Position numbers and translations under genes: made by a program. This document shows, piece by piece, positions 10,268 through 16,687 of a DNA stretch of 64,000 bases; positions within the stretch are counted from its first letter, which is position 1, and the number at the start of each line of letters is the position of its first letter. The DNA is from Spirosoma oryzicola (GTDB taxonomy: Bacteria; Bacteroidota; Bacteroidia; Cytophagales; Spirosomataceae). The notes below the pieces were generated by a model. The model had not been told where the DNA came from, did not search any database, and saw only the letters and a program-made list of their open reading frames with translations. Location of the stretch: the NCBI RefSeq assembly GCF_021233055.1, contig NZ_CP089538.1, positions 1,903,501-1,967,500 on the forward strand, read 5' to 3'.

Positions 10268-11407
10268 TTAGGGAGTTGATACGAACTCAGGTTTGGTAGC
10301 ATCTTCACCCGTGCCTAAAGACGCGTCTGCACCACTCACGTGTGCCTGAGACGAACGGGGCATCTGCCGAAGCGTATCGACAAACCGCTCGTTTTCGGCG
10401 CGGGTTCCGATAGAGATGCGTAGACAACCGTCGCAGAGTTTTACTTTTGAGCGATCCCGGACGATCACCTGCTGCTCGATCAGGTACTCAAATGTTTGTT
10501 TGGCATCCTCAAACTGAACCAGCAAAAAGTTTGCGTCGGACGGGTGAATAACCTGTACGAAGGGCAAAGAACGCAGAATTTCGGCTAAATTGGTTCGCTC
10601 CGTCAAAATAGTTGTAACCATTTCGTCTTTTTCGGCTTCACGGTCGAGCGCTTCGAGTGCCAGGGTCTGCGTAGGAGCCGAGATGTTGTAAGGTGGCTTG
10701 ATCTTGTTCATGATTCCGATCAATTCTTCCGAAGCAAAACACATGCCTAAGCGCAGCGCTGCCAATCCCCAGGCTTTCGAGAAGGTCTGTAAAACCACCA
10801 GGTTGGGGTATTGGTCCAGTTGATTCGTCCACGAGGGGGTATCGGCGAAGTCGATGTACGCTTCGTCCACAATCACCAGCGAGTGGTCGGCGGCCTCAAG
10901 AATCGTGCGGATTGCCTCTTCCTGAAGCAGATTGCCCGACGGATTGTTAGGCGAACAGAGCCAGATTAGTTTTGTATTCGCGTTGATGGCTTTCAATACC
11001 GCATCTGTATCAACCTGAAAAGCAGGCGTTAGCGGGACTTTGATAAGCGCAACATCATTGATATTGGCCGACACTTCGTACATGCCGTAGGTAGGCGGCA
11101 TAATCAGAATGTTGTCTTTCCCCGGCGTGCAGGTCGCTCGTACCAGCAGGTCAATCGGTTCGTCGGAGCCATTTCCCAGAAAGATCTGTTCAGGCCGAAC
11201 GCCTTTGATTGGAGCCAATTTTTGTTTGATGGCCCACTGGTGCGGATCAGGATAGCGGTTATAGTCACCTTCGGGCGTTGCCGAGCCCAGCGGGTTTTCG
11301 TTGGCATCCAGAAAAACGCCTTCTTTACCGGTATATTCATCGCGGGCCGACGAGTAAGGCGTTATACCCAGGATGTGAGGACGCAGGAGATTCGTGAGTG
11401 TAAACAT
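10268..11407 (-). CDS. hisC: Histidinol-phosphate aminotransferase HisC
   Basis: PLP-dependent enzyme that makes L-histidinol phosphate from imidazole acetol phosphate and glutamate. The 379-residue product shows the fold-type I class II signatures: PYSSARDEYTG, FLDANENPLGS, FLGNGSDEPIDLL, WLCSPNNPSGN, VIVDEAYIDF, and the PLP lysine in QTFSKAWGLAALRLG. I chose the ATG at 11407 (MFTLTNLLRPHI) over the longer frame from 11470 because the latter would overlap the deformylase gene by about 40 bp and adds 21 unlikely residues. The C-terminus carries about 30 extra Ser/Gly/Ala-rich residues. It is separated from hisD and hisG by two unrelated genes and a palindromic repeat. Confidence 0.94.
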   Translation of the reverse strand: MFTLTNLLRPHILGITPYSSARDEYTGKEGVFLDANENPLGSATPEGDYNRYPDPHQWAIKQKLAPIKGVRPEQIFLGNGSDEPIDLLVRATCTPGKDNILIMPPTYGMYEVSANINDVALIKVPLTPAFQVDTDAVLKAINANTKLIWLCSPNNPSGNLLQEEAIRTILEAADHSLVIVDEAYIDFADTPSWTNQLDQYPNLVVLQTFSKAWGLAALRLGMCFASEELIGIMNKIKPPYNISAPTQTLALEALDREAEKDEMVTTILTERTNLAEILRSLPFVQVIHPSDANFLLVQFEDAKQTFEYLIEQQVIVRDRSKVKLCDGCLRISIGTRAENERFVDTLRQMPRSSQAHVSGADASLGTGEDATKPEFVSTP

Positions 11408-11429
11408 GTAGCTAGGTACTAAATAGCGG

Positions 11430-11927
11430 TTAAATAGGCGTTGGTCGCCACCGGAACGACTGGTTATCAATGGCGCGCATCGTGCAAAGAACGCCGTTCA
11501 GATGATCGTATTCGTGTTGAATCAATTCGGATAAGCCCCAGTCGGTAACGTCCCAGGTGTGCGGTTGCCAGTGCTCATCCCGATACGACAACGTTAGCGT
11601 ACGGTGTCGGCGTACGTGCACCAGTAAGTTTGGGAAACTCATACAATCATCCCAAAGTTCATCTGTTTCATCGCTGACGGTTACCAGTTCGGGGTTAATG
11701 ATGACCTGGGGAAGGTCTACATTTAAGTAGATCAGCCGTTTCATGATACCAAGTTGCGGAGCGGCAATACCCCGCCCGAACTGGTATTTGGCCCGAATTT
11801 CTTCCATTACCGCGTGTAGATCGGTAACCCAGCCGTTTACCAAGGGTAGTTCCGATTCCAGAACGGGGGCGCAGCTTTCGTACAAGCGCGGGTCGCCTAA
11901 CAACAGCAGGTCGTCGAGGTGCTTCAT
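11430..11927 (-). CDS. def: Peptide deformylase-like protein with a variant motif 2
   Basis: Metallo-hydrolase of the polypeptide deformylase family (165 residues). Motif 1 GRGIAAPQ at 51-58 and motif 3 HEYDH at 138-142 are intact, giving both zinc/iron histidines and the catalytic Glu. Motif 2, normally EGCLS, reads DDCMS at 93-97, keeping the metal-binding Cys. All catalytic ligands are therefore present, but the substrate-shaping residues differ, so it may be a second, specialised deformylase rather than the housekeeping one. The start codon overlaps the stop of the upstream aminotransferase gene (ATGA), and hisC follows 22 bp later, so the three genes are probably co-transcribed. Confidence 0.82.
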   Translation of the reverse strand: MKHLDDLLLLGDPRLYESCAPVLESELPLVNGWVTDLHAVMEEIRAKYQFGRGIAAPQLGIMKRLIYLNVDLPQVIINPELVTVSDETDELWDDCMSFPNLLVHVRRHRTLTLSYRDEHWQPHTWDVTDWGLSELIQHEYDHLNGVLCTMRAIDNQSFRWRPTPI

Positions 11928-13108
11928 GCCAGTATTCGTGTCAGCGCGTCAACCAGCGTGGTGATTTCTTCCTCGGTGTTGAAATAGTGGGGCGAAATGC
12001 GCAGCGCTGCCGTTGTTATACCTTTTCGGTCGTAGTCCAGAATGGCCGAACCGTGATCACTGAGTGAGGTATTGATGCGCTCGGCCAGCAAGGCACTTTT
12101 CAGGTCTGCCGCCGGTTTTCGTTCGCTGGAGAGCGTAATGATACTGGCTAGTCGTTCGCCTTCATCCAGCAGCCGTACATCCGGTAGCTGACGTAGCCGA
12201 TTGCACAAGTTTTCCCGTAAAGTGGTATTGCGACGAGCGATGGCTTCAAGGCCAACTGACAAGGCGTAGCGATTCGCTTCGGCGGCACCTTGCAGGAGCG
12301 CATGGGGAAACTCCCAATATTCAAATCGCTGGGCCGTTGGCAGAAGCTGATACGAATCGGCAGACTCCCAGACCGCACCGCGCAGATCAACGAATAGCGG
12401 AGCGAGTTGGCTGGACAGGACCTTGTCAGAGACGTACAAAAAGCCTACACCGCGTGGTCCCCGCAGAAATTTTCGGCACGTCGCCGTTAGGAAATCGCAA
12501 TGAATCTGGTTTACGTCGAGGGGGAGTTGACCTACTGACTGACAGGCATCGACCAGATACAAAACGTCAGCTTCCCGACAAAGCTGTCCGATGGCTTCAA
12601 CGGGCTGAATTAGACCGGAGTTGGTTGGTATGTGCGTAACCGCTACCAGCCTCGGACGAAGTGCCTTGATCTTGCTGGCTATATCCTCGACCGAAACGCC
12701 ACCCGCCGGGCTATCCTCCGCCCGAACGATGTTGACGCCTAATCGCTTCTGCAACGATAGAAACGCCAGTTGATTCGACACGTAGTCGTTGACCGTTGTC
12801 AGAATCACATCCCCCCGCTCGAACGGAATTGACGACAAAGCCCGCGCGTAGGCATCCGTGGCATTGGCGGTAGCGGCAATGTGTTCGGCGGTCGTATTGA
12901 GCAGGTCAGCCGTCGAGGTGTAAAACTGCTGCGTGGCGTCTTGCCGCAACTGGGCCGCTTCATAACCGCCGATCTCTGATTCCAGCGTTAGATGACTGGT
13001 AATCGCATCGATAACCGGTTGGGGCATAAGCGACGCTCCGGCATTGTTAAAATGTACGACATGCCGGGTTCCGGGGGTATCGTTTCGAAGCGTAAGGAGG
13101 TCAATCAT
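11924..13108 (-). CDS. Class V aminotransferase-fold PLP enzyme (cysteine desulfurase/kynureninase-like)
   Basis: PLP-dependent protein of fold type I, aminotransferase class V. It begins with the HFNNAGASLMP block seen in this class, has YLVDACQSVGQLPLDV for the PLP-binding Asp and Gln region, and the lysine in TATCRKFLRGPRGVGFLYV for the Schiff base. I used the ATG at 13108 (MIDLLTLRND, 394 residues); the frame extends only to a TTG four codons earlier. The C-terminal ISPHYFNTEEEITTLVDALTRIL is typical. The exact reaction is not clear: no cysteine loop of the IscS type could be pinned down. It overlaps the deformylase gene by 4 bp and heads the minus-strand cluster that includes hisC. Confidence 0.85.
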   Translation of the reverse strand: MIDLLTLRNDTPGTRHVVHFNNAGASLMPQPVIDAITSHLTLESEIGGYEAAQLRQDATQQFYTSTADLLNTTAEHIAATANATDAYARALSSIPFERGDVILTTVNDYVSNQLAFLSLQKRLGVNIVRAEDSPAGGVSVEDIASKIKALRPRLVAVTHIPTNSGLIQPVEAIGQLCREADVLYLVDACQSVGQLPLDVNQIHCDFLTATCRKFLRGPRGVGFLYVSDKVLSSQLAPLFVDLRGAVWESADSYQLLPTAQRFEYWEFPHALLQGAAEANRYALSVGLEAIARRNTTLRENLCNRLRQLPDVRLLDEGERLASIITLSSERKPAADLKSALLAERINTSLSDHGSAILDYDRKGITTAALRISPHYFNTEEEITTLVDALTRILA

Positions 13109-13164
13109 AAGCGGAGGCAACTATCGGTACTGTACTTCGGGATTTTTGTTGTCTGTGGTGAGTG

Positions 13165-13321: not shown

Positions 13322-14611
13322 CTAGGTCATCTTTTCTTCCAGCAGACTGGCAAGGCGCAGGCTTACGGCCCGCTTGTGCGCATCGAGTGATTCGGCTTCG
13401 GCCATGGCTTCAACCACCGGCCCTAGCTTCTGCAAACCTTCCGGACTAATGTGCTGCACCGTAATTTTCTTGACGAAGCTGTCCAGTGAGACACCACTGT
13501 AGGCGCGGGCAAAACCGTTGGTGGGCAGGGTGTGGTTCGTACCCGATGCGTAATCGCCTGCTGATTCGGGCGTGTAATTACCGAGAAAAATCGATCCCGC
13601 ATTCGTGATCCGTTCGGCTACCTCTTCGGCGTTTTCAACACTCAGGATCAGGTGCTCGGCGGCATAGGCATTGAGTAGGTCAATGGCTTCCTGCTGGGTT
13701 TCGACCAAAATAGTTTTGCTGTTTTCCAGCGATTTAGCCGCCAGTTCCTGACGGGGAAGCTTGCCCAGTTGCGTGGGCAGGGCCAGATTAACCAGTTCAA
13801 CCAGCCGTTTGCTGGTCGAAACCAACAATACCTGGCTGTCGCTGCCGTGTTCAGCCTGCGAGAGCAGATCGGCGGCTACAAAGGCGGGAACCGCCGAATC
13901 GTCAGCGTAAACCGCTACCTCACTTGGTCCGGCGGGCATATCGATAGCAACTCCTTCTTTGGCAACGAGCATCTTAGCCGCCGTGACGTACTGGTTACCC
14001 GGTCCAAAAATCTTGTATACTTGCGGTACCGACTCCGTTCCGTACGCCATAGCCGCAATGGCCTGTGCTCCACCGATGCGGAATACCTTGGTGACGCCGA
14101 CGAGTTTAGCCGCAAAGTAGATAGCTGGGTGGTTGCTGGGTGTACACAATACCACCTCGCGGCAACCGGCCAGTTGAGCCGGAATGCCCAACATCAGCAC
14201 CGTGCTAAATAACGGAGCCGTACCACCCGGAATGTAAAGGCCCACTTTTTCGATACCAACGCTCCGACGCCAGCACACGACACCCGGCATGGTTTCAACT
14301 TTTTCAATCGGCTGTTTTTGCCGTTCGTGAAACAACCGTATGTTTTGGTAAGCCTGGTGAATGGCTGCCTTTAATTCATCACTCAACTGTGATTCGGCGG
14401 CCTCGATTTCCGTTGCCGGAACGTCCAGACCACTCGTTGATAAGTCCACTTTGTCAAACTTCTGGGCCAGTTCGATCAAGGCGGCATCGCCCCCGGTACG
14501 TACCTGGGAGAGAATAGGAGCAACAGCCGCTTCGATTTGCTGCGTTGACTGTACGGGTCTGGCCAGTAAGGCGGGCCATTCGATGCGGTCGGGAAAAGAA
14601 ATGATGTTCAT
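13322..14611 (-). CDS. hisD: Histidinol dehydrogenase HisD
   Basis: Zinc enzyme that oxidises L-histidinol to L-histidine in two NAD-dependent steps. The 429 residues match the family. Visible signatures include VCWRRSVGIEKVGLYIPGGTAPL, the GPGNQYVTAAKMLV block, IDMPAGPSEVAVYAD, SQAEHGSDSQ (zinc Gln/His), the catalytic AAEHLIL and SAGDYASGTNHTLPTNGFAR. It lies 71 bp downstream of hisG on the minus strand and is expected to be on the same message, under control of the leader upstream of hisG. The next gene is not hisC, which lies about 2 kb further downstream. Confidence 0.97.
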   Translation of the reverse strand: MNIISFPDRIEWPALLARPVQSTQQIEAAVAPILSQVRTGGDAALIELAQKFDKVDLSTSGLDVPATEIEAAESQLSDELKAAIHQAYQNIRLFHERQKQPIEKVETMPGVVCWRRSVGIEKVGLYIPGGTAPLFSTVLMLGIPAQLAGCREVVLCTPSNHPAIYFAAKLVGVTKVFRIGGAQAIAAMAYGTESVPQVYKIFGPGNQYVTAAKMLVAKEGVAIDMPAGPSEVAVYADDSAVPAFVAADLLSQAEHGSDSQVLLVSTSKRLVELVNLALPTQLGKLPRQELAAKSLENSKTILVETQQEAIDLLNAYAAEHLILSVENAEEVAERITNAGSIFLGNYTPESAGDYASGTNHTLPTNGFARAYSGVSLDSFVKKITVQHISPEGLQKLGPVVEAMAEAESLDAHKRAVSLRLASLLEEKMT

Positions 14612-14682: not shown

Positions 14683-15543
14683 TTAGTAAATCATTTTTTC
14701 AATCGGGATCACCAGAATTCCTTCCGCACCAGCGGTTCGGATGGCTTCGATATTTTCCCAGAACTCGTTTTCGTTCAACACCGAATGAACGGAGCTCCAG
14801 CCCTCAGTGGCCAGTGGGGTTACAGTCGGGCTTCGCATACCGGGCAACAAAGCCGTAATCGTGTCGAGTGCGTGGTTTGGTGCGTTCAGAACGATGTATT
14901 TGTTGTTCTTGGCCGCTTGCACCGCTTTGATGCGGAACAATAGTTTATCGACCAGCGCTTGCTTATCCTCATCCAGTTCAGCACGGGCAATCAGAATGGC
15001 TTCGGAGCGGAAAATGGTTTCTACTTCTTTCAAGCCGTTGCTCAGAAGCGTGCTGCCCGAACTAACAATGTCGCAAACGGCTTCGGCCAGGCCAATGCTC
15101 GGCGCGATCTCGACCGACCCGCTGATCTCGTGAATTTCAGCCTTTACACCTTGACCAGCCAGGTAATTGCCAAGTAAATTCGGGTACGATGTGGCAATAT
15201 TCTTACCGTTCAGACTCTCAATCCCCGTCCAGTCGCTGCCGCGCGAAATGGCAATCGACAGGCGGCACTTGGAAAAACCTAACTTATGAATGGTTTGTAC
15301 CGGGCGGCCCGTTTCGACGGCCACGTTCTCACCAACGATGCCTAAATCAGCAACGCCGTCTTCGACATAACCGGGAATATCGTCGTCGCGCAGGAACAGA
15401 AACTCAGCGGGAAAGTTCGACGAAACAGATTTGAGTTTGCCGGTGCCGTAGTCGAAACGGATGCCACACTCTTTAAAAAGCTGGTACGAATCTTCGCTCA
15501 GCCGACCGGATTTTTGTAAGGCAATGCGTAATACAGAAGACAT
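14683..15543 (-). CDS. hisG: ATP phosphoribosyltransferase HisG (long form)
   Basis: First enzyme of histidine synthesis, joining ATP and PRPP. The 286-residue length is that of the long, homohexameric form with a C-terminal ACT-like regulatory domain that binds histidine, so no HisZ is needed. Visible signatures are IALQKSGRLSEDSYQLF, DIPGYVEDGVADLGIVGEN, ATSYPNLLGNYL, EISGSVEIAPSIGLAEAVCDIVSSGSTL (PRPP loop) and the C-terminal NHALDTITALLPGMRSPTVTPL of the regulatory domain. It is the first structural gene behind a promoter at 15793-15823 and a roughly 240-nt leader that holds a His-rich short reading frame. Confidence 0.97.
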   Translation of the reverse strand: MSSVLRIALQKSGRLSEDSYQLFKECGIRFDYGTGKLKSVSSNFPAEFLFLRDDDIPGYVEDGVADLGIVGENVAVETGRPVQTIHKLGFSKCRLSIAISRGSDWTGIESLNGKNIATSYPNLLGNYLAGQGVKAEIHEISGSVEIAPSIGLAEAVCDIVSSGSTLLSNGLKEVETIFRSEAILIARAELDEDKQALVDKLLFRIKAVQAAKNNKYIVLNAPNHALDTITALLPGMRSPTVTPLATEGWSSVHSVLNENEFWENIEAIRTAGAEGILVIPIEKMIY

Positions 15544-15724
15544 TACTGGATGTATGCTAGACGATTTGGGTTGTATTGCAAAATAAATACCCTACTTCGT
15601 TGGTTGTGGGACTTAAACCAATGACGGACAAGTGATTTGTCTGACTTAGGTTGAAACAAGGGGTAAAAGTACGGGAAAACGGTGGACCAACAGGCGGTTA
15701 GTCGCGGAATTGACCAACGACAGC

Positions 15725-15787
15725 CTAGCAGCCGTGCGGATGGCGACGATGTCGAAAAGGAGAGAGTGTTGCCTGTTGGGAAATCAT
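15725..15787 (-). CDS. Putative his operon leader peptide (20 residues)
   Basis: Short frame read by hand on the minus strand, starting ATG at 15785-15787 and ending TAG at 15725-15727. Its C-terminal half is FRHRRHPHGC: three His codons (CAT, CAT, CAC) within six codons. It sits between the predicted promoter (-7 ends at 15793) and hisG (start 15543), which is where an attenuation leader would be. Codons 3-6 overlap one arm (15771-15779) of a 9-bp inverted repeat whose partner (15687-15695) lies between the leader stop and hisG. By distance from the -7 element, transcription would start about one base before the ATG, so the peptide may be translated from a leaderless or nearly leaderless mRNA. 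No strong U-run terminator was seen. Confidence 0.6.
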   Translation of the reverse strand: MISQQATLSPFRHRRHPHGC

Positions 15788-15792
15788 GGACG

Positions 15793-15823
15793 CAAAAGTA
15801 AAGGTACGCCACGAAACGAGCAA
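15793..15823 (-). promoter_or_regulatory. Promoter of the hisG-hisD operon
   Basis: On the minus strand TTG (15823-15821), a 20-bp spacer and TACTTTTG (15800-15793), a near-consensus Bacteroidota promoter (TTG-N19-TAnnTTTG). The predicted start is near 15788, leaving a leader of about 240 nt before hisG. Confidence 0.7.
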
Positions 15824-15902
15824 GACTTTTGATCTAACATTACTACGAGACGATCTGCTACGGATCTAACTTTTTGATTGCTTTTATTAGTGGTAATTAA
15901 TT

Positions 15903-15942
15903 TTTGAAATGTGTAAGTTTTCGTTATCTTTGTTTGAAATGT
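15903..15942 (+). promoter_or_regulatory. higBA promoter with overlapping 30-bp-spaced direct repeat
   Basis: TTG at 15904-15906, an 18-bp spacer and TATCTTTG at 15925-15932 match the Bacteroidota promoter, with a predicted start near 15937 and a 59-nt untranslated leader. The 10-mer TTTGAAATGT occurs at 15903-15912, covering the -33 element, and again at 15933-15942, covering the start site. The 30-bp period is three helical turns, so the repeats could be a HigA operator. Confidence 0.65.
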
Positions 15943-15995
15943 TATCGCTATCGGCCCGCGATGACCATGTGTTATAAAAACAGACAGGAACGAAC

Positions 15996-16289
15996 ATGGT
16001 AATTGTAAGCCGAAAAGTTATCCGGGAATATGCGATCATGAATTCACAATCGACCGAAGCACTCAATGAATGGTATTTGAAAACAAAAGCTGCCGATTGG
16101 GGTAATCTAGCTGATGTAAAAAACACCTTTAATTCAGTCGATTATGTTGGTAATGATAACTACGTGTTCAATATAAAAGGCAACCAGTACCGTCTGATCG
16201 TTCGTATTATTTTCCCAGTTCGTACTGTGTTCATACGTTTTATCGGTACTCATGCGGAGTACGATAAAATAAATGCTTCATCTGTTTAA
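15996..16289 (+). CDS. higB: HigB-family toxin (type II toxin-antitoxin)
   Basis: Small RelE-superfamily ribosome-dependent mRNA interferase of the HigB type, 97 residues. The N-terminal MVIVSRKVIREYAIMN followed by ALNEWYLKTKAADWGNLADVKNTF, then NDNYVFNIKGNQYRLIVRIIFPVRTVFIRFIGTHAEYDKI, is the full family pattern, including the basic and tyrosine residues near the C-terminus (RFIGTHAEYD). The toxin gene comes first and the antitoxin second, the order typical of higBA. The stop is 26 bp before the HigA start. The region has visibly lower GC than the flanking his and helicase genes, consistent with horizontal acquisition. Confidence 0.9.
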   Translation: MVIVSRKVIREYAIMNSQSTEALNEWYLKTKAADWGNLADVKNTFNSVDYVGNDNYVFNIKGNQYRLIVRIIFPVRTVFIRFIGTHAEYDKINASSV

Positions 16290-16315
16290 ATGAAATCTTT
16301 TACGAAGAAGCGACT

Positions 16316-16687
16316 ATGATTCTAACCATAGAAACACCTCATGACTATGAGCAGGTTATGGAGGTGATCGAAACACAGTTAGCGAAAGGTTCGGCCAACA
16401 TGACCGAAACCGATCTGGCTGAATTGCAACGCCTTTCACTATTAGCCGAACACTATGAAGAGGAGCATTACCCAATGCCTGTTGAGCCAGCTACATTGCC
16501 GGAAATGATTCGACTACGAATGTTTCAGGAGAATCTTAAACAGCGCGATACGGCTAGAGTTCTAGGTATTACTGAAACGCGACTTTCGGAGGTCCTGGCC
16601 GGGAAACGTAAGGTGAATATGGACTTAGCAAAGCGCTTATATGATAAGCTTCATATCAGAGCCGATTACATCTTGAAAATGGCCTAA
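16316..16687 (+). CDS. higA: HigA-family antitoxin, HTH transcriptional regulator
   Basis: Antitoxin partner of the preceding toxin, 123 residues. The N-terminal acidic, helical part (IETPHDYEQVMEVIETQLAKG through EEEHYPMPVEPATLPEM) resembles HigA proteins of the long type, and the C-terminal part holds an XRE-like helix-turn-helix: QRDTARVLGITETRLSEVLAGKRKVNMDLAKRLYDKL. It should bind HigB and repress the shared promoter at 15903-15942. A terminator-like hairpin at 16735-16764 follows 48 bp after the stop codon. Confidence 0.9.
   Translation: MILTIETPHDYEQVMEVIETQLAKGSANMTETDLAELQRLSLLAEHYEEEHYPMPVEPATLPEMIRLRMFQENLKQRDTARVLGITETRLSEVLAGKRKVNMDLAKRLYDKLHIRADYILKMA

Follow-up and report, generated by a model that had tools for sequence, protein, structure and literature searches.

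Upstream of hisG in Spirosoma oryzicola lies a short reading frame rich in histidine codons, which raises the question of whether a leader peptide adjusts histidine synthesis in this bacterium and how it could act on the transcript. The window, the whole 64-kb stretch of DNA that was analysed, carries the locus on its minus strand. The hisG gene encodes ATP phosphoribosyltransferase (14683..15543, minus strand; TIGR00070 and TIGR03455), and the closest named relatives of its product are Spirosoma records at 89-94% identity, one Spirosomataceae bin included. Downstream of it, on the same strand, come hisD (histidinol dehydrogenase, 13322..14611, minus strand; TIGR00069), a class-V aminotransferase gene, a peptide-deformylase-like frame, and hisC (histidinol-phosphate transaminase, 10268..11470, minus strand; TIGR01141). 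The two frames between hisD and hisC (11430-13120, minus strand), the aminotransferase being SufS/EgtE-like, both score below curated cut-offs.

The leader peptide frame, MISQQATLSPFRHRRHPHGC followed by a stop codon, occupies 15725..15787 (minus strand) and runs for 20 codons from an ATG at 15787. Its His codons are codons 13, 16, and 18 and belong to a control stretch reading R-H-R-R-H-P-H (CGA CAT CGT CGC CAT CCG CAC; 15734..15754, minus strand). An earlier note on this DNA described this frame, about 180 nt between it and hisG, and a promoter consisting of TTG, 20 nt, and a box, all of which are found as described. The first promoter, P1, has a -33 element TTG (15821..15823, minus strand) 20 nt 5′ of a -7 box, TACTTTTG (15793..15800, minus strand), which fits the Bacteroidota form TAnnTTTG and whose first T lies 13 nt before the leader ATG. 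The leader stop is 181 nt from the hisG ATG at 15543.

The enterobacterial hisL attenuator (Rfam His_leader) combines a short His-rich leader, in which the position of the ribosome serves as the sensor, with a terminator that the mechanism needs. The Spirosoma leader shares with hisL a short His-rich frame 5′ of hisG and, presumably, the use of ribosome position as sensor. It differs in its interspersed Arg codons, its leaderless-looking start, a promoter box behind the leader, and the lack of both a detectable intrinsic terminator and an Rfam match. The earlier note proposed attenuation of the hisL type; its observation is confirmed and its interpretation is partly supported.

The frame is conserved across the genus. 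The genus sample comprises 36 genomes, 35 of which have a HisG match (G028 has none), and the leader or a relative of it stands 5′ of hisG in 34 of these 35. A search with a sequence model of this leader gave matches in 34 genomes, in each of them at hisG, while the hisG of G024 has no leader; a weak extra match in G003 (L317) is not leader-like. Counted by distinct upstream regions, the conserved core is present in 34/35, one of the 34 (L018) being truncated by a contig end. The genus consensus is MISQRATHSPFRHRRHHRGC, its control codons read R-H-R-R-H-H-R, and CGA-CAT at codons 12-13 is found in all 25 distinct 20-codon leaders. One lineage (L031, L099, L100) keeps a single His codon, with a leader ending in CFRHRR and the stop. 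Conservation of frame and His codons, which the earlier note set as a check, holds for the most part.

The ratio dN/dS, calculated over the 25 distinct leaders of 20 codons, is 0.37 for the reading frame and rises to 1.33 and 1.16 when the frame is shifted; the calculation excluded leaders that are longer or shorter (L009, L017, L021, L023, L031, L099, L100) and the truncated L018. In a wider set, short ATG frames with at least three His in eight residues occur in 46/186 distinct hisG upstream regions, against 2.7 in Markov shuffles, and frames with at least four in 23/186, against 0.1 expected; these regions are the last 300 nt before hisG and are weighted to one family, hence not independent. 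A chance frame is ruled out by this excess together with the dN/dS values. Conservation of CGACATCGTCG as a hairpin was considered and rejected: by inspection the pairing is broken in L011, L023, and L031, and Runella lacks it, which makes a coding role the more probable cause of the sequence's conservation. As judged from these alignments, the 20-codon frame encodes a true histidine leader peptide, kin to the His leaders that precede hisG across the class of Bacteroidota, and it is under purifying selection that is strongest at the N-terminus. Its tie to hisG, as the earlier note had it, is upheld.

The N-terminal constraint invites another reading. Codons 2-11 have a dN/dS of 0.28 in the 25 hisG leaders, against 0.71 for codons 2-7 in 19 leaders of the hisH operon described below, and a peptide that is itself functional would fit this, whether as a sequence-specific arrest peptide or as a trans-acting small protein such as the leader peptide reported from Sinorhizobium (PMC7298713). 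We regard this as very unlikely, since within the genus the leader is strictly linked to hisG, its His codons suit sensing in cis, and the N-terminal codons may be kept as RNA or start-region sequence. The leader probably works as a His sensor.

The start of the leader message is unusual. A box of the form TAnnTTT[GA] lies 12-13 nt 5′ of the leader ATG in 32/33 genus loci, which places the ATG 4-5 nt behind the box; L023 carries TACCTTCG at this position. TTG at the P1 spacing is less general (12/33 loci). The sequence TAnnTTTG is the published -7 consensus of Bacteroidota (PMC7366714). The same source puts 5′ UTRs shorter than 10 nt at ~3.7% in B. thetaiotaomicron, which would make a leaderless leader unusual, in that species at least. 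The start looks leaderless, as the earlier note suggested, and the message perhaps is so, with a 5′ end near the ATG that is predicted from box spacing only.

The terminator that a hisL-type mechanism needs does not appear. Terminator-like sites between the leader stop and hisG occur in 8/32 genus loci against 7.2 expected, which is the chance level, and the folds of eight genus subclades contain no shared terminator; the earlier remark that no U-run terminator is obvious thus stands. In Runella, a hairpin with a U-run lies between leader and hisG in 6/9 loci against 1.7 expected, and three classical relatives have a terminator-like site in 3/3 against 0.1. At gathering score, the Rfam His_leader and T-box models both fail to match anywhere in the window, whose sole match at that score is a tRNA; a His_leader match is also lacking in 15500-16320 when E values up to 10 are admitted. 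T-box elements are reported as absent from 7 Bacteroidetes/Chlorobi genomes (PMC2494555). Rfam matches in L039 and L043 are mostly to unrelated microRNA families and are taken as chance. Sub-threshold Thr_leader matches in L216 and L219 overlie leader-plus-terminator regions.

The proposed switch fares no better. The arms CCAACAGGC inside the leader (15771..15779, minus strand) and GCCTGTTGG 3′ of it (15687..15695, minus strand) are present, but their pairing is not conserved. The 5′ bases of the leader pair with the stretch behind the stop at p<0.05 over shuffles in only 2/33 genus loci, namely the window’s species and, through other letters, L023; the median p over the 33 loci, 0.19, speaks for the earlier note. 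By inspection, one pair of the arms is broken in the sister loci L004 and L005. The second GTTGG that was thought to compete for pairing exists, two bases from where it had been placed (15718-15714), and opens a hairpin GTTGGTC-AATTCCGC-GACTAAC (15697..15718, minus strand) that belongs to the fold of the window’s species and is partly kept in L004 and L005. Attenuation by alternative pairing of the hisL type is therefore not borne out, the arms being unconserved and the required terminator not above chance, and by sequence the hisG leader falls outside the classical his attenuators on both terminator and switch.

Another complementarity, also in favour of the earlier note, joins AACGGG in codons 4-6 of the leader to CCCGTT in the spacer of P2, a second promoter-like site described below. 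It is paired in 135/198 cells, against 117 (sd 4) in shuffles, a value reached by 0/2000, and all six pairs form in 8 loci against 6.0 expected, which 11.7% of shuffles reach; kinship among the sequences inflates this test. As an antiterminator the complementarity is only suggestive, and each of its two sides has other grounds for conservation.

HP1, a possible hairpin ACGGCT-GCTA-GGCTGT (15720..15735, minus strand), contains the leader stop codon. Single sequences beat shuffles in 2/32 genus loci, with a group mean of 11.9 against 10.2, and 71.3% of cells pair against 69.5% when shuffled. Five pairs are changed on both sides against 2.6 in shuffles, a number that 2/500 shuffles reach and that kinship among the sequences inflates. 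Slid registers do nearly as well, with five double-change pairs at -1 and a covariation score of 0.221 at +3 against 0.216. HP1 is absent in Runella. In other Cytophagales, the hairpin at the corresponding position pairs in 97% of cells with 10 double changes against 0.5; the underlying alignment was fitted to the model, omits L189, which has no match, and includes two reverse-strand self-matches of the palindromic hairpin. The evidence for HP1 is mixed and weak in the genus and strong for its counterpart in other Cytophagales.

P2, a second promoter-like site, lies between leader and hisG and consists of CCGTTTTCCCG and the box TACTTTTA (15664..15682, minus strand; box 15671-15664). The earlier note overlooked it, as it did the possible HP1 hairpin and the second His leader, which hisH has elsewhere in the genome. 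Counted from the first base of the leader stop codon, a TAnnTTTR box starts 26-80 nt further on in 34/34 genus loci, and in the form TAnnTTTG in 32/33 against 6.5% in shuffles, the exception being the window’s species, in which the last base is A instead of G. L018 was left out of the 32/33 count, as of the arm-pairing and AACGGG/CCCGTT tests. Behind the leader stop, TAnnTTTG is found in 30/31 loci of the genus, 4/10 of Runella, 0/3 of genera g18 and g29, and 2/2 of the rest of the family; outside the family it occurs in 0/13 order and 2/35 class loci.

The T-tract of P2 bears on a reading in which a classical intrinsic attenuator persists, made of weak terminators that differ among lineages and whose U-run is at once the T-tract of P2. 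Besides the Runella count, an argument for it comes from inspection of two sequences, L007 and L020, in which a compensated hairpin (ACTGC..GCAGT against ACTAC..GTAGT) precedes CCCGTTTTT and adjoins an HP1 that has also changed (GTGGC/GCCAC against GTGAC/GTCAC). This reading is unlikely. The genus count of terminator-like sites stays at chance, the P2 box of L027 and L028 starts 26 nt past the first stop-codon base and leaves scant room for a second hairpin, and a T-tract also precedes hisG in leaderless genera, as if it were part of a promoter.

The T-tract and box of P2 indeed resemble the hisG promoter of these genera, in which TAnnTTTG lies at most 60 nt from hisG in 15/15 loci from four genera without a leader. 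Larkinella, Fibrella, and Rudanella have only the proximal promoter at hisG, and P1 and the leader of Spirosoma could accordingly be a relic, decaying towards that state since P2 took over. The loss of the leader in G024 and the lineage with a single His codon agree with such decay, which is nonetheless decidedly unlikely, given that the frame is under purifying selection and that P1 and CGA-CAT are retained almost genus-wide.

On balance we lean towards a hisG His leader that is read from P1 and senses His-tRNA, with an output other than intrinsic termination and with P2 as a basal bypass. The transcript from P1 would carry the leader, perhaps translated from a leaderless message. When charged His-tRNA is scarce, the ribosome would stall on R-H-R-R-H-H, just 5′ of the stop codon and the possible hairpin, and the ribosome's position would alter the fate of the P1 transcript, raising the share that extends into hisG. 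HP1 would be free to form when the ribosome has halted at the first His codons, and would be melted by a ribosome at the stop codon. P2 would provide a histidine-blind basal message, and through it a large part of the hisG mRNA may bypass the leader.

Since no intrinsic terminator is seen, the output must come about in another way; the simplest candidate is Rho-dependent termination within the pyrimidine-rich sequence that follows the leader. The RNA from leader stop to P2 contains 33% C, 32% U, 22% G, and 12% A, compared with 26% A, 24% C, 22% G, and 29% U before trpE, and rho is present in the window’s genome. A plain Rho model does not on its own yield the right sign, in that it does not explain why stalling would aid read-through. 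The single-His lineage, the leaderless G024, the weak HP1 of the genus, and its absence from Runella also count against the proposed explanation. A more detailed version is tentative at best: a terminator-less sensor on a leaderless message, in which Arg/His stalling by the stop hairpin might set Rho access or RNA polymerase traffic over P2, with the conserved N-terminus participating, beside a textbook attenuator at hisH. The open frame that contains rho (G000:C1:3314545-3316821, plus strand) is 797 codons long, compared with 415 positions in the family model.

The stretch between P2 and hisG holds a possible hairpin GACAA-ATCAC-TTGTC (15627..15641, minus strand), where other subclades fold otherwise. 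Structure in this stretch (window 15544-15660, minus strand; also L007/L020 and L010/L012/L014) exceeds shuffles in two subclades, b and c, at z below -4 (-4.75 from two sequences and -4.23 from three), and has a z of -1.4 in the window’s subclade.

A second his operon of the same genome begins with hisH and has a His leader of its own. The leader (L369, G000:C1, directly upstream of 35999) reads MTLAIAIHRHHHSER and a stop and sits directly behind TATTTTTG; a terminator hairpin CCCGG..CCGGGCTTTTTTT is present in the region, and AAAGCCCGGTTCTGCCAATGAGCCGGGCTTTTTTT follows shortly before hisH (identified by TIGR01855). Extra matches of the hisG leader model in G001, G014, and G021 are to such a second leader; in G021 it is followed by hisH, hisA, and hisF with other genes interspersed. 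The two leaders share a TAnnTTTG box directly 5′ of the ATG and, in four species, the start MISQ, and the hisH leader has comparable control codons, HRHHH. The hisH leader differs in having a terminator hairpin, a possible antiterminator, and a single TAnnTTTG box, the only one within 420 nt before hisH in the window’s genome.

A His leader frame is found in 26/30 genus hisH loci. The terminator motif occurs in 27/28 loci with a leader-length frame, followed by at least five T in 16/27. In all 27 loci, 6-8 bases just past the leader stop complement the first arm and loop of the terminator and form a candidate antiterminator, which in L375, where the frame has one His, pairs through other letters. 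Against shuffles, 0/27 loci reach p<0.05 when G-U pairs are allowed (median p 0.31), and 27/27 do so with Watson-Crick pairs only, in a test run after the first; the complement is nearly invariant, which makes covariation uninformative. From these features, the hisH operon looks like the carrier of a complete textbook His attenuator, its antiterminator being a candidate. Among the four genera without a hisG leader, 9/18 hisH loci show, by reading, a His leader directly behind the box. A distant HisH homologue at 40% identity (G000:C3:173051-173650, minus strand) is a second glutamine-amidotransferase-like gene.

His leaders precede hisG well beyond the genus. Runella has FFRHHHHHAC, and genera g18 and g29 have RHRHHH and HLHRH. 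His frames were found in 1/15 loci of the four leaderless family genera (that one, L045, looks like chance), in 2/46 loci of the rest of the family, in 13/40 order loci outside the family, and in 35/36 class loci outside the order (L318-L353), the class count admitting GTG and TTG starts and including at least one frame, L342, that looks like chance. The order loci were sampled from 101 and the class loci from 99 matching genomes. Many class loci resemble Spirosoma in leader position and His codons and add terminator hairpins of the GGCTTACC..GGTAAGCC kind with a U-run, a crude GC-plus-T5 count giving 26/35.

Leaders of other Cytophagales families end in HHFHHSS and the stop, with a hairpin round the stop codon. 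A covariance model of this hairpin matches in 49/291 order genomes, once each, with hisG 66-179 nt behind it on the same strand in 30/30 fetched loci. These leaders are like that of Spirosoma in having the hairpin right after the His codons and no U-run terminator at a fixed place, and differ in their stronger covarying stem, their ACATATCGCCC-like stretch, and the lack of TAnnTTTG after the leader (0/13 order loci). By eye, C/G-rich segments behind the L224-L253 leaders, near the ACATATCGCCC-like stretch, could pair in two exclusive ways.

This distribution suggests that His attenuation before hisG is common in the class of Bacteroidota. His-attenuator ancestry of the Spirosoma hisG leader is well supported by comparison with these relatives, and the leader looks derived, its peptide kept, its terminator lost, and a bypass promoter gained. 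An order of events that fits begins with an attenuator at hisG; the his genes then come to lie in two clusters, the hisH one having an attenuator too, after which hisG loses its terminator and acquires P2, and some genera finally lose the leader.

Amino-acid operon control in Bacteroidota is little described in the accessible literature, and searches found no paper on a his leader in this group. Candidate attenuators in Bacteroidetes/Chlorobi are reportedly named in the abstract of Vitreschak and co-workers (2004), and for this reason the class-wide part of the present results may already be partly in print. Leader genes have been treated in general (PMC4833913). Control of his genes in Gram-positive bacteria is described as involving the DNA-binding repressor HisR, the T-box, and attenuators with His leader peptides (PMC9413887); as presented there, these attenuators have terminator and antiterminator hairpins, unlike the Spirosoma hisG leader. 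The word leader is absent from the main text of a paper on his genes in the Bacteroidota superphylum (PMC8305728), and the B. thetaiotaomicron transcriptome study notes small leader-peptide-like frames in long 5′ UTRs, with histidine unmentioned in its available text (PMC7366714). One Spirosoma genome offers a matched pair, an apparently complete attenuator at hisH and a terminator-less one that keeps its peptide at hisG, which allows a direct test of how a leader peptide acts without an intrinsic terminator. The pair also informs how attenuators decay into promoters or are bypassed by them.

General amino-acid leaders in the genus were considered and rejected: no leader-like conserved frame precedes trpE or ilvB (30 loci each), and the short box-linked frames at 7/30 trpE and 1/30 ilvB loci include no Trp or branched-chain leader. 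Five of the seven trpE frames share RGVAQPGS, which we provisionally take for a tRNA gene. The trpE model match is below its curated cut-off in all 36 genus genomes, and ilvB is a weaker control because it probably lies inside an operon. Divergent from hisG, a HigB-like toxin gene (PF09907) and an HTH antitoxin-like gene (PF01381) occupy 15996-16687 on the plus strand, and a TATCTTTG box at 15925 accompanies this pair.
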